Assembly (NCBI GenBank): GCA_007644065.1
Contig: VJWN01000007.1
Span: 2,262,167 to 2,326,166, forward strand
Length of the DNA: 64,000 nucleotides
Source of the DNA: Margaritispora aquatica
Lineage: Eukaryota > Ascomycota > Leotiomycetes > Helotiales > Discinellaceae
Reading direction: 5' to 3'
The first letter of the stretch is position 1. Every line of letters starts with the position of its first letter. The translations under genes and the position numbers were made by a program. Positions 9,812 through 26,220 of the stretch are shown piece after piece. The notes under the pieces were generated by a model, which saw only the letters and a program-made list of their open reading frames with translations, did no database searches and was not told the origin of the DNA.

Positions 9812-9908
9812 GGGCATTTGGTCTAGGGGTATGATATTCGTTTCGCATTCGGCTTCGTGCTGAGTATTACATTATGAATGGTCGAGGGTTCAATTCCCTC
9901 AATGTCCA
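9812..9908 (+). tRNA. tRNA-Ala(CGC) with intron
   Basis: Acceptor GGGCATT (9812-9818) pairs with AATGTCC (9901-9907), discriminator A. The third pair is G3-U70, the classical alanine identity element. D arm GTCTAGGGGTATGAT is normal. The anticodon stem TTCGT (9837-9841) pairs with ATGAA (9874-9878) with one G-U. The loop reads T33 then CGC (9844-9846), decoding GCG. An intron of about 25 nt sits after position 37 (9848-9872). The T arm GAGGG-TTCAATT-CCCTC (9884-9900) is intact. A T-rich run downstream (about 9940-9966) can terminate Pol III. Confidence 0.9.
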
Positions 9909-21064: not shown

Positions 21065-21438
21065 ATGTTTCCCTCAATCCGGCTACTTCAGCATGCCTGT
21101 CGGATAACGCTGTTTACTCGGGCGAATTGCCAGCTTTGTGTCAATGCAAAACAAACTTTATCAAACGTTTGGGATACAAGGCCGTTTGAATTCAAGGAAT
21201 ATGATGTTATGACGGACGAGGGCAAGAAATGGAGGGATCTGTATGAATTTGATACCCCAGTTGTAAGTGTTCGAAGTGAATATCTTGAATTTGAGTTAAC
21301 ATATTGTAGATTCATGTCAGTAAAGCAAAGGATGCCGAGGAGATTCCGGCTCTTTCTGCCCAGGCAAAGAAGCTCATGCATAGATTTACGGAGGATGAAG
21401 TCAAAGCAAAGATGGATGCCGCGGAGGCTGATGCATGA
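21065..21438 (+). CDS. Glutaredoxin-like protein (DUF836 type)
   Basis: Two exons, 21065..21262 and 21310..21438, joined by a 47-nt GT-AG intron; 108 aa. The N-terminal strand RITLFTRANCQLCVNAKQTL carries the thioredoxin-fold CxxC (CQLC), followed by FEFKEYDVMTDEGKKWRDLYEFDTPVIHV with the cis-Pro (TPV) loop. This matches the glutaredoxin-like YDR286C/C5orf63 family, probably mitochondrial or cytosolic. Substrates are not known. The C-terminal helix is charged. Confidence 0.88.
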
Positions 21439-21844
21439 ATTCAGATGTACAGTAGTGCTTCAACTGATCCATGGTCTCCTCAGCTTGTTTCAGTCCTTTT
21501 TTGTACTGTCTTCATTTGTCAGTTGCCTATTTATATTTATTCGGGTTGTCGAGCTGTTTAGGTTTGCAATCGAGTCTGAAAGCCCATGACTTCTAAGTTG
21601 AACGTTTCAGGTCAGCTTGCCAAGAATAGCACTCGATCTTCCTCAATATAATTATATATGATTATGCCCGCTTTAATAGATGTAAATGCGATTCAATGGG
21701 ATTGCTTAATCTCTGTGCCAAAAAGCACATTCAAACGGTATCCCAGATGCCAGAAGAGGGTCGCTTAAGCTCAGGGCTCCTTTTTTCTCTTTCCCACATG
21801 CATCTATTCAATATCTCTTGAGAGCAATATCCAAACGAGAATCG
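21439..21844. other. Intergenic upstream of tRNA-Ser
   Basis: 3' flank of the glutaredoxin-like gene and 5' flank of the tRNA. Nothing else recognised. Confidence 0.45.
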
Positions 21845-22011
21845 GGCGCTTTGGCGGAGTGGTTATCGCGCTAGCCTAGAATTGTCTTCTCACGAAACAT
21901 CTAGATTAAGCTAGTTCCTTCGGGAGCAAGAGTTGTAAGTATTGTAATCCACACCACGATCATGCAGTTCAATGTCACTAACAAACTATCTAGCAAATCT
22001 CTTAGGCGTCG
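21845..22011 (+). tRNA. tRNA-Ser(AGA) split by two introns, one of mRNA type in the T loop
   Basis: When two insertions are removed a complete tRNA-Ser remains. Acceptor GGCGCTT (21845-21851) pairs with AGGCGTC (22004-22010) with two G-U pairs, discriminator G (22011). D stem GCGG/TCGC and loop AGTGGTTA are normal. Anticodon stem CTAGC (21871-21875) pairs with GCTAG (21910-21914), loop T33 then AGA (21878-21880). The long variable arm TTCC-TTC-GGGA (21915-21925) is the serine hallmark. T stem AAGAG (21928-21932) pairs with CTCTT (21999-22003). Intron 1 (about 21882-21908, 27 nt) is at the normal 37/38 site. Intron 2 (21935-21993) interrupts the T loop after TT, so that TT plus CAAAT re-forms a standard loop. 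The B box is therefore split in the DNA. Confidence 0.82.
21935..21993 (+). other. Spliceosomal-type intron inside the tRNA T loop
   Basis: A 59-nt insert between T-loop positions 55 and 56. It starts GTAAGT (ideal 5' splice site) and has CACTAAC (21976-21982, ideal branch site). It ends CTAG, 11 nt after the branch motif. Length and signals match the protein-gene introns in this window. It does not form the bulge-helix-bulge expected of tRNA-endonuclease substrates as far as I can see by eye. Confidence 0.75.
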
Positions 22012-22022
22012 TGCATAGTTTA

Positions 22023-22028
22023 TTTTTT
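22023..22028 (+). terminator. Pol III T-run terminator
   Basis: Six T residues begin 12 nt after the discriminator base of tRNA-Ser, the usual position for Pol III termination. Its presence argues that the split tRNA gene is a Pol III unit. Confidence 0.6.
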
Positions 22029-22758: not shown

Positions 22759-24032
22759 TCATCGGCCATAAGGCCCGGTCAATTTCGGCGCCTCACCCTG
22801 CCCCTTAGCTTTATAAACAGCTCCCATAACACTGCTCTGCAATATCAACACATCCGTCGCACAACTCACCATCCCGAACCCCATATCCGCATACCCCTTC
22901 GCCTGCTCCGCACTTGTACAGAAGATGCCCGATTTCTTCCCTGCTTTCTTAGCTGCCTCAAGCACCTTCTTAATGCCTGTTTGCAACTCCTCGCTCATCA
23001 CGCCATTGATGACGGGATGACCAATGTTGTTGCCTAGATCAAATGGGCCTACGAATAGCACATCGATGCCAGGAAGGGCAGCAATGGCATCGACGGCTTC
23101 GAGCGCCTCTCTAGTTTCAATTTGCACAATGGTGAGAATGGACTCGTTGGCTTGCTGGAGGTAGTCTGTTGAGCTGAGAGCTGGTGAGAAGTTGGGATGT
23201 GGGAAAGGAGAGCCGAAGCCTCGCTGGCCGAGCGGTGGGAATTTGGCTGAGAGCACTAGGCGCTTGCAGTCTTCGACCGTGTAGATGAGCGGGACAAGAA
23301 CACCGTGCGCACCGGAGTCAAGAGCACCTGTTTGGTGTTAACCGAGCTTGAGGTAAAGGGAGGGGGGGAAGGACTATAATGGGGAAACTTACGCTTTACC
23401 ATCCAGCCTTGGTTGTCTGGTATGCGGACAATTGGTGATACTCCACAGGCTGCTATCGCTGGTACTGCTTCGTGCATTGCTTTATCTGAGAATTGTGAGA
23501 ATTCTGTGCAATAGAGACATAATCATATGATGTCCGGCTCGCATAGCAGATACTTCACTTTTGCAGGACTGCAAGTGTAACTTGGAGGCAGCACGCTCCA
23601 AGATCAAATGAACGAGCATCCAGATGAGATCTAAAATTCTGCGTTTGTCCGAAGATACCAACTCGAAGTACAGATCTTCGCGATGGTACTAAAGAGATAG
23701 TGCATACCGAAAAGGAGACTCAACTATGGAAATCAAGAAATATAGTAACTCACCATCCATATTTCCATGTTCGCCTATTCCAAGAAGTCAGCATTCATAT
23801 TTAGCCTGACTATAATTCAATTGTATTCTTACTTACAGTCCACCAAAACCCAATCCACCCCGGTTCTCGCCAAAGCTCTTGAAACATTAGCCCCAGGAAG
23901 CATTTGCCTAATCTTGATCAGAACCACTATTCATATCTCATAATGATTGAAAGTCCAAGTATACCAAGCTCCCATACTGGGTCCTTTCTCCAACGCCACC
24001 TTCAAGACATTAGTCTCCTTCATTGAAGCCAT
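22759..24032 (-). CDS. HpcH/HpaI aldolase family protein
   Basis: Five exons in transcript order: 24032..23965, 23907..23837, 23774..23754 (only 21 nt), 23485..23393, 23327..22759; 273 aa. Class II pyruvate-type aldolase of the HpcH/HpaI family, which cleaves 4-hydroxy-2-oxo acids with a divalent metal. Spliced motifs: GAWQMLPGANVSRALARTGV, DWVLVDCEHGNMDDKAMHEAV (catalytic His and nearby acidic residues), PIVRIPDNQGWMVKRALDSG, AHGVLVPLIYT, TIVQIETREAL, and IDVLFVGPFDLGNNIG with the Asp that helps bind metal. Start chosen at MASMKET, where the family begins; an upstream in-frame Met (24161) would add a 43-residue leader, possibly mitochondrial. Physiological substrate unknown. Confidence 0.9.
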
Positions 24033-24792: not shown

Positions 24793-26220
24793 TCAGCGGA
24801 GGTGCATAACCATAGAATCTGGATCTTCGACAAATCCTCGGACAACCTCAGCTGCCCGTGCCATGGTAGCACCATCGATGACTCTGTGGTCAGCACTCCA
24901 GCTGAAGTTGCACACTTGTTTCCTGACAATCTCACCGTTCTCGCCAAAAGCAGGAATGGTCTTCATCTTGCCAATTCCTAGAATAGCCACTTCCTTTTCA
25001 ACAATGACTGGCGAGACATAGGTACCACCGATGCTTCCGATGTTTGAGACTGTAATGGTGCCACCACTCAGATCCTGGCTGCTGAGCTTACCTAAGGAAG
25101 CTAAAGACTGTAGACGATTAAGTTCGGCGGCTATTGCTAGAACATTCATACTGGACACATTCTTGATAACCGGGACAATGAGCCCATTGGGGGTGTCCAT
25201 GGCGACACCAATGTTGTGCTGACTTCTCATGATAAGAACTGGCTTTGACGAGGAGGAATCGATGCCAACCTTAGCGTTCAATGTGGGGCATTGGTGAAGT
25301 GACATAGAGACGGCTTTTATAATAAATGGAAGGAAAGACAATTTGCTGACGTCGCTGACAGCTCTTTTTGAGAGATTATTATTGAGTCTGATTCGTAGTT
25401 CAGCTAGCCCAGTGAAATCGATTTCGTCTGCATAAAGAAAGTGAGGTATTGACAAAGACTTGGCCATGGTCTTGAACATTTGATGCTGGGTATTGGATAA
25501 TGGTTGGACAGTTTCCTCTTGAGATCCAGTCGAATTTGCTGATAGAGACTTCGTTGAAGTCTCACAAGTAACAGGCGATGTATCGCGAGCTTTTGCAAAT
25601 TGATAGACATCTTCTTTCAAGACACGACCATCTCTCCCTGAGCCATCCACATCCTCAATATTGACGTTCAACTCCTTTGTTAAATGCCTTACGGCTGGCG
25701 TAGCCAGAGTTGTATGCTTGCCCTTTGGCTTCAAGGATTCCTCGGATTTTGGTGGGGATTCCGAAGCAGAGGACCCTGGTGGTGGGGTAGATGGTGGGGT
25801 GCCTTTGGTCCTTTCTTGGGTTTCTTCTCCAGCTCCAGGTTCCGTCAAAGCAGCCATATCTTCGTCCTTGATTTCTCCTTGTATATCAATATCGACTAAA
25901 GGCTTTCCAACCTTTGCCATTTCCCCAGCATCATAATGAAGCCTCTTGATCACACCAGCAAACCTGCTAGTGATCTCCACAGATGCCTTGTCGCTCTGTA
26001 CTTCACATAACTTATCCCATTCTTCCACCCTTGCCTCTGGTTCAACGAACCATTGAATAATCTCGCACTCTCGAATCCCCTCTCCAATATCTGCAAGTAA
26101 GAAAGGCTTTATGGCACAGAGTCTTGTCGATGTATGAAACTGAGAGAAGTGACCTGGAAGATTAAGCTTATTGTAGGCACGGAGTTGCCGTAAAGACTGA
26201 AGAGGAAATCGAAAATGCAT
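24793..26220 (-). CDS. Branched-chain 2-oxoacid dehydrogenase E2 (dihydrolipoyl transacylase)
   Basis: Single exon, 475 aa. Core acyltransferase of the mitochondrial complex that oxidises the keto acids of Leu, Ile and Val. Presequence to about residue 35, then a lipoyl domain (about 38-115) with the lipoyl-lysine motif EVQSDKASVEI. A Pro/Ser-rich linker leads to a peripheral subunit-binding domain (about 168-205, TPAVRHLTKELNVNIEDVDG with GRDGRVLKEDV). The catalytic domain starts near 240 and ends with the active-site motif SADHRVIDGATMARA. The SVSNIGSIGGTYVSP-type stretch (seen as TVSNIGSIGGTYVSPVI) is also characteristic. Divergent from ATP10. Confidence 0.95.
   Translation of the reverse strand: MHFRFPLQSLRQLRAYNKLNLPGHFSQFHTSTRLCAIKPFLLADIGEGIRECEIIQWFVEPEARVEEWDKLCEVQSDKASVEITSRFAGVIKRLHYDAGEMAKVGKPLVDIDIQGEIKDEDMAALTEPGAGEETQERTKGTPPSTPPPGSSASESPPKSEESLKPKGKHTTLATPAVRHLTKELNVNIEDVDGSGRDGRVLKEDVYQFAKARDTSPVTCETSTKSLSANSTGSQEETVQPLSNTQHQMFKTMAKSLSIPHFLYADEIDFTGLAELRIRLNNNLSKRAVSDVSKLSFLPFIIKAVSMSLHQCPTLNAKVGIDSSSSKPVLIMRSQHNIGVAMDTPNGLIVPVIKNVSSMNVLAIAAELNRLQSLASLGKLSSQDLSGGTITVSNIGSIGGTYVSPVIVEKEVAILGIGKMKTIPAFGENGEIVRKQVCNFSWSADHRVIDGATMARAAEVVRGFVEDPDSMVMHLR

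Follow-up and report, generated by a model that had tools for sequence, protein, structure and literature searches.

Candidate spliceosomal introns at non-canonical sites in a class of nuclear tRNA genes of a helotialean fungus

Introduction

Introns at position 37/38 of tRNA genes are removed by the tRNA splicing endonuclease and ligase. In the stretch of fungal DNA analysed here (the window, 64 kb long; C47:2262167-2326166 of a 42.36-Mb assembly), a tRNA-Ser(AGA) gene carries such an intron together with a second insert, in its T loop, that has the signals of an mRNA intron. The locus raises the questions of whether this second insert is a spliceosomal intron, whether it is a single oddity and whether a gene interrupted in this way can still supply a tRNA. 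A search of the open-access full-text literature, with subscription papers mostly outside it, turned up no paper describing a spliceosomal intron in a nuclear tRNA gene. The evidence set out below indicates, with a probability of about 0.83, that the gene is one of a class of nuclear tRNA genes bearing genuine spliceosomal introns at non-canonical sites in a helotialean fungus.

Results

The anatomy of the window gene is given in Table 1. The initial annotation had described a tRNA-Ser(AGA) gene with a 37/38 intron and a T-loop insert resembling a textbook fungal mRNA-type intron; its coordinates and junctions proved exact, and the three motifs it named, GTAAGT, CACTAAC and CTAG, are all present in the 59-nt insert. 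Removal of both inserts leaves an 81-nt tRNA with a sound cloverleaf and all stems paired, which ARAGORN calls as tRNA-Ser(AGA). The unspliced gene receives no call, removal of the T-loop insert alone yields a mis-framed tRNA-Asn with an intron, and the minimum-energy fold of the unspliced RNA is no cloverleaf. An Rfam scan of the whole window at the gathering threshold likewise missed the gene. The ends of the 59-nt insert are unable to slide, with T before it and G at its end, and G at its start and C after it, and the 27-nt 37/38 intron contains TCTAG, complementary to CTAGA of the anticodon region. On both strands of the 64-kb window, the strict motif GTAAGT..CTRAC..YAG was found 4 times, compared with 0.6 on average in ten Markov controls, and a looser motif 23 times, compared with 13.9. 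A protein-coding use of the tRNA exons was rejected after inspection of the frames by eye.

Proteins encoded in the window place it near helotialean fungi. The E2 protein has 76-78% identity to its best matches, and the best named match comes from Cadophora, a member of Helotiales. Exact-pattern searches for the same loci in relatives gave no match in two collections, viral contigs and genome contigs, neither of them fungal.

Table 1 Coordinates of the window gene, its surroundings and related tRNA genes elsewhere in the genome (positions without a C prefix are window positions)
Feature	Position	Strand	Remarks
tRNA-Ser(AGA) gene	21845-22011	+	two inserts
Exon 1: acceptor 5' strand, D arm, anticodon arm up to position 37	21845-21881	+	ARAGORN on spliced sequence
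Presumed A box region of Pol III	21852-21862	+	TGGCGGAGTGG; letters equal in the three intact Ser(AGA) genes
Canonical tRNA intron at 37/38	21882-21908	+	27 nt
Exon 2: position 38, anticodon 3' strand, serine long arm, T stem 5' strand, T54 and T55	21909-21934	+	
B box cut by the insert	21931-22000	+	AGTT 21931-21934 and CAAATCT 21994-22000
mRNA-type intron between T55 and C56	21935-21993	+	59 nt; one copy in genome
5' splice site GTAAGT	21935-21940	+	
Weak B-box-like site inside the insert	21966-21976	+	AGTTCAATGTC; 1.8 bits
Branch-site motif CACTAAC	21976-21982	+	branch A 21981, 12 nt before intron end
3' end CTAG of the insert	21990-21993	+	
Exon 3: C56 onward, T stem 3' strand, acceptor 3' strand, discriminator G	21994-22011	+	
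T6 run, presumably the Pol III terminator	22023-22028	+	12 nt past discriminator
Glutaredoxin-like (DUF836) reading frame, upstream	21065-21589	+	Pfam match
HpcH/HpaI aldolase frame, converging from the other side	22759-23256	-	
Second tRNA in window	9812-9908		Rfam 47.7 bits; 25-nt intron near 37/38; ARAGORN Ala(cgc)
E2 protein	24796-26220		
Intact tRNA-Ser(AGA)	C6:139477-139569		as matched; 37/38 intron 30 nt
Intact tRNA-Ser(AGA)	C45:54728-54820		as matched; 37/38 intron 30 nt
Intact tRNA-Ser(AGA)	C47:2544942-2545022		37/38 intron 0 nt
Gln(TTG), L117	C16 ~361286	-	48-nt mRNA-type intron at 6/7, acceptor stem, before A box; 38-nt intron at 37/38
Gln(TTG), L121	C25 ~111022	+	51-nt mRNA-type intron at 6/7, acceptor stem, before A box; 38-nt intron at 37/38
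Elongator tRNA-Met, L169	C3:341290-341560		54-nt intron at 26/27; also 37/38 intron
tRNA-Lys(CTT), L170	C24:323000-323260		54-nt intron at 53/54; also 37/38 intron
tRNA-Lys(CTT), L171	C49:164290-164550		54-nt intron at 53/54; also 37/38 intron
tRNA-Lys(TTT), L125:68-191	C34:1186717-1186840		50-nt GTAAGT..AACTAAC..CAG intron at 60/61, 1186778-1186827

Seven of the 70 nuclear tRNA genes located in this genome carry mRNA-type introns outside 37/38, at five sites (6/7, 26/27, 53/54, 55/56 and 60/61). With six further nuclear tRNA genes interrupted in this manner, the phenomenon is wider than the initial annotation saw: a class of tRNA genes rather than a single oddity. The six were found by an A-box search without a T-arm requirement, followed by reading of the loci that ARAGORN failed to call. 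Once fully spliced, all seven are called by ARAGORN, as Ser(aga), Lys(ttt), Lys(ctt) twice, Met(cat) and Gln(ttg) twice; the Met gene with its 37/38 intron retained is called Ala(agc).

The total of 70 comprises 41 genes found by Rfam and 46 by A box, 17 of them by both, and all seven interrupted genes came by the A-box route. For the Rfam genome search, 62 of 1722 candidates were scored. They yielded 61 matches, of which 40 entered the nuclear count and the 21 on C38 were treated as mitochondrial. Among the A-box searches, the initial one had 13 of its 15 two-mismatch matches left out of tRNA assessment. Another returned 20 matches, of which 16 were counted and three A-box repeats and one chance match left out, and another 27, of which 22 were counted and two on C38 and three others left out. 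A further search returned 47, with 8 counted, 5 on C38 left out and 34 others left out; of these 34, five that were fetched held no tRNA and 29 were discarded on visual inspection because their D stems paired poorly, including five that partly pair (C12:115342, C23:1139113, C24:362708, C27:286079 and C46:1462024). The gene list is incomplete, D-loops of the form TGGTA lying outside the A-box searches. On C38 (42,582 bases), several tRNA matches at about 5.3-7.4 kb reappear at about 39.0-41.1 kb, always some 33.7 kb further on; a circular mitochondrial genome of about 33.7 kb whose ends overlap in the assembly would give such a pattern.

The inserts have in common the signals of U2-type introns. 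Ranging from 48 to 59 nt in length, all seven match the consensus at the 5' splice site (GTAAGT in five, GTAAGC in one, GTATGT in one), at the branch site (CTAAC or CTAAT, with the branch A 10-12 nt before the end) and at the 3' splice site (CAG in six, TAG in one), and exact excision restores the host RNA in all seven, as judged by ARAGORN on the fully spliced sequences. The same set of signals occurs in none of the 31 distinct introns assigned by ARAGORN to 37/38 or its vicinity, of which two have even a bare GT..AG within two bases of their ends. That the inserts are chance insertions, assembly errors or tRNA-like repeats mimicking introns has a negligible probability: this genome does contain tRNA-like A-box repeats that lack a T arm, yet a random insert would start with GT[AG]NG, end with YAG and hold CTAAY at one of five positions with a chance of about 2.4e-6, the three signals are found jointly in 7/7, and six tRNA sequences are restored perfectly across five sites and seven loci. 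The A-box repeats in question (L015, L020 and L024, at C1:670222, C9:293861 and C18:71465) have in common TTAGAAATGGCCGAGTGGTTATGGCGCCAG and, further on, GTGCAACAAAA, and none has an Rfam match at the gathering threshold. Spliceosomal introns in nuclear tRNA genes are very likely real as sequence features.

Removal of the inserts by the tRNA splicing endonuclease would be another route, as is thought for non-37/38 introns known in algae, nucleomorphs and archaea (PMC4090602). We give this only a slight probability. A canonical bulge-helix-bulge, with a 4-bp helix and two 3-nt bulges at the junctions, is absent from all seven inserts; a relaxed form fits one of them, in the Lys(CTT) gene on C24, in one of 16 offsets tried. 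Against the endonuclease stand also the consensus spliceosomal signals in every insert and the strict cutting at 37/38 reported for the yeast enzyme (PMC4033280).

The internal promoter separates the window gene from the other six. Scored with a matrix built from 40 distinct intact tRNA genes of this genome, the B box is retained in 6/7 unspliced genes at 7.5-17.9 bits (Gln 17.9 and 17.9, Met 13.8, Lys(CTT) 15.6 and 15.6, Lys(TTT) 7.5) and lost in the window gene only. In the Lys(CTT) pair, the final AG of the intron supplies the first two B-box positions and so rebuilds the box. Insertions thus look tolerated where the promoter survives, with the window copy as the exception, for which a separate verdict is given below. 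T-run terminators lie 4-37 nt downstream of all seven genes. These features also bear on whether the interrupted sequences sit in Pol II transcripts, for example by 3' UTR read-through, with the introns relevant there alone. The window copy does lie 3' of the glutaredoxin-like gene on the same strand; the Pol III boxes of the other six, the terminators of all seven and the identical exons beside diverged introns described next, which such transcripts leave unexplained, make this very improbable.

Paralogue pairs speak for function of the class. The exons of the two interrupted Lys(CTT) genes are identical to each other and to those of four uninterrupted Lys(CTT) genes, and the mature sequences of the two Gln(TTG) genes are identical. 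The inserts are 63% alike in the Lys(CTT) pair (38/60 columns; shuffled mean 48.5%) and 62% in the Gln pair (32/52; shuffled 47.7%), identities raised partly by shared splice signals. The shared site suggests, and does not prove, that each pair inherited its intron from one ancestor; if so, the exons were held while the introns drifted, unlike a dead gene. The interrupted Met gene and another Met gene (L077) differ at four positions, which make up two compensated pairs of the anticodon stem. In all six Lys(CTT) genes seen (L079, L080, L082, L087, L170 and L171) the exons agree, and a U-U mismatch sits midway along the anticodon stem.

For two codons the interrupted genes may be the only source. 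Under established rules of decoding, AAA and CAA need UUU and UUG anticodons. A DNA search of the genome with the Lys(TTT) gene gave no match beyond itself. A pattern of its anticodon and T arm, allowing up to one mismatch and blind to Lys(TTT) genes with a 37/38 intron, gave 29 matches: the C34 gene, one tRNA-Lys(ttt) on C38, two other tRNAs (Arg and Asn) and 25 without an ARAGORN tRNA. One nuclear Lys(TTT) gene was found in the incomplete gene list, and it is interrupted; both Gln(TTG) genes in the same list carry an insert, and a third Gln gene (L115), Gln(CTG) by its anticodon-loop letters, is without one. With the one Lys(UUU) gene and the two Gln(UUG) genes of this list all interrupted, decoding of AAA and CAA probably requires the spliceosome, although the survey is incomplete and may have missed Lys(UUU) or Gln(UUG) copies that have no intron.

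The window copy itself calls for more caution. The initial annotation had named several intact tRNA-Ser(AGA) genes elsewhere, together with a lack of spliced reads, as the marks of a dead copy; our count found three intact genes, so that half of this picture is in place. At the sequence level, the window copy shows few signs of decay: relative to the intronless Ser(AGA) paralogue (L012) it differs at four positions, which are two compensated pairs, an acceptor-stem pair also present in the C6 gene and a T-stem pair flanking the insert, and uncompensated changes in stems or at conserved bases are absent. The T-stem pair, A50-U64, might have come by gene conversion from a Ser(GCT) gene (L018), which has the same pair; base 57 differs between the two, so the conversion would have to be patchy.

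The promoter tells against this copy. Its B box would score 12.3 bits if joined, and the halves as they stand in the DNA score -12.0 and -4.9, while the weakest box among the 40 intact genes has 7.2 bits and the best remaining match in the window gene 1.8 bits. That match lies inside the insert, much as the U6 intron of S. pombe reportedly carries a B box; an internal B box is not claimed, because 2378 of 20000 insert shuffles reach the same score. With its B box broken, the window copy may be weak, silent or poorly transcribed, and given also the three intact paralogues its output is uncertain; that it makes a usable tRNA is somewhat doubtful.

The chances are about even that the class is real and the window copy was recently silenced, the intron in the B box having stopped Pol III transcription while the three intact genes supply tRNA-Ser(AGA). 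The split B box and these paralogues agree with such a course. Opposed to it are the 81 exon nucleotides without one uncompensated change and the retention of the A box, the 37/38 intron pairing and the T6 terminator. A near-identical donor intron might also be expected after a very recent insertion, yet the genome holds no second copy of the insert, and two of its 21-mers, searched with up to 3 mismatches, found one 3-mismatch match each elsewhere. The window insert and the Lys(TTT) gene with its insert, the two searched in this way, each occur once, which does not mark them as introners or members of a mobile family. Whatever the output of the gene, its intron is, by its sequence, as genuine as those of the other class members. 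Of the arrangement that the initial annotation had proposed, the anatomy and the implied need for two splicing machineries hold, and for this copy the intact paralogues and the split promoter weaken it.

Discussion

The preferred reading of these genes as hosts of spliceosomal introns implies the following course. Pol III would transcribe each gene from its internal A and B boxes, and the spliceosome would remove the GT-AG intron by branching, as suggested by the splice sites, branch site, length and exact restoration of the tRNA. Where a 37/38 intron is also present, the tRNA splicing endonuclease and ligase would remove it. What the data show directly is the anatomy of the sequences, the counts and the pattern of conservation; from these we infer Pol III transcription, removal by the spliceosome, the order of these steps and an origin by reverse splicing. 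The spliced tRNA is likely made and used in the case of the two Gln(UUG), the Lys(UUU) and the two Lys(CUU) genes.

One close parallel is the U6 snRNA. Its mRNA-type intron in Schizosaccharomyces pombe and other fungi is considered to derive from reverse splicing (PMC10484740). The tRNA introns resemble it as GT-AG introns in a short structured Pol III RNA, and differ in that the hosts are tRNAs of several families, with five sites, and that a spliceosomal and a 37/38 intron can occur in one gene. U6 introns reportedly contain a B-box match, going by the title of one paper; the B-box-like site of the window insert scores no higher than expected by chance. Neither of the two U6 genes found in this genome has an intron, and both match the model end to end.

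Fungal U3 snoRNA also hosts mRNA-type introns in a small structured RNA, which is no tRNA, and in some Leotiomycetes intron-bearing and intronless copies occur side by side (PMC5832005). The window gene and several other members of the class also have a canonical eukaryotic 37/38 intron in the same RNA, and the seven inserts differ from such introns in site, in signals and in the absence of a bulge-helix-bulge. In archaea, cryptophyte nucleomorphs and Cyanidioschyzon, introns can interrupt the D arm or the T arm, and some of these genes have another intron at 37/38 (PMC4090602). These introns are endonuclease substrates with a bulge-helix-bulge or short and unexplained (3-24 nt in Guillardia). 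The sites and the occasional pairing with a 37/38 intron are alike; the seven inserts, unlike these, are 48-59 nt long with GT, branch site and AG. As Rfam at its gathering threshold missed five of the seven unspliced genes, similar cases could lie unseen in other genomes.

Reasonably likely, in our judgement, is the stronger reading that the spliceosome is obligatory for tRNA processing in this fungus: the transcripts of the sole Lys(UUU) gene and of both Gln(UUG) genes would have to be spliced before AAA and CAA can be read, and tRNA genes would repeatedly have acquired introns, with reverse splicing of them into Pol III transcripts as the probable route, these surviving mainly where the internal promoter was kept or rebuilt. 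If true, translation would be tied to the spliceosome, and splicing would be possible on Pol III transcripts that have no cap and whose exons are very short (in the Gln genes, 6 nt plus leader). The genes would then also be a natural record of intron gain in a setting with almost no sequence freedom, in which the sites of insertion and the constraints of the promoter could be read directly.
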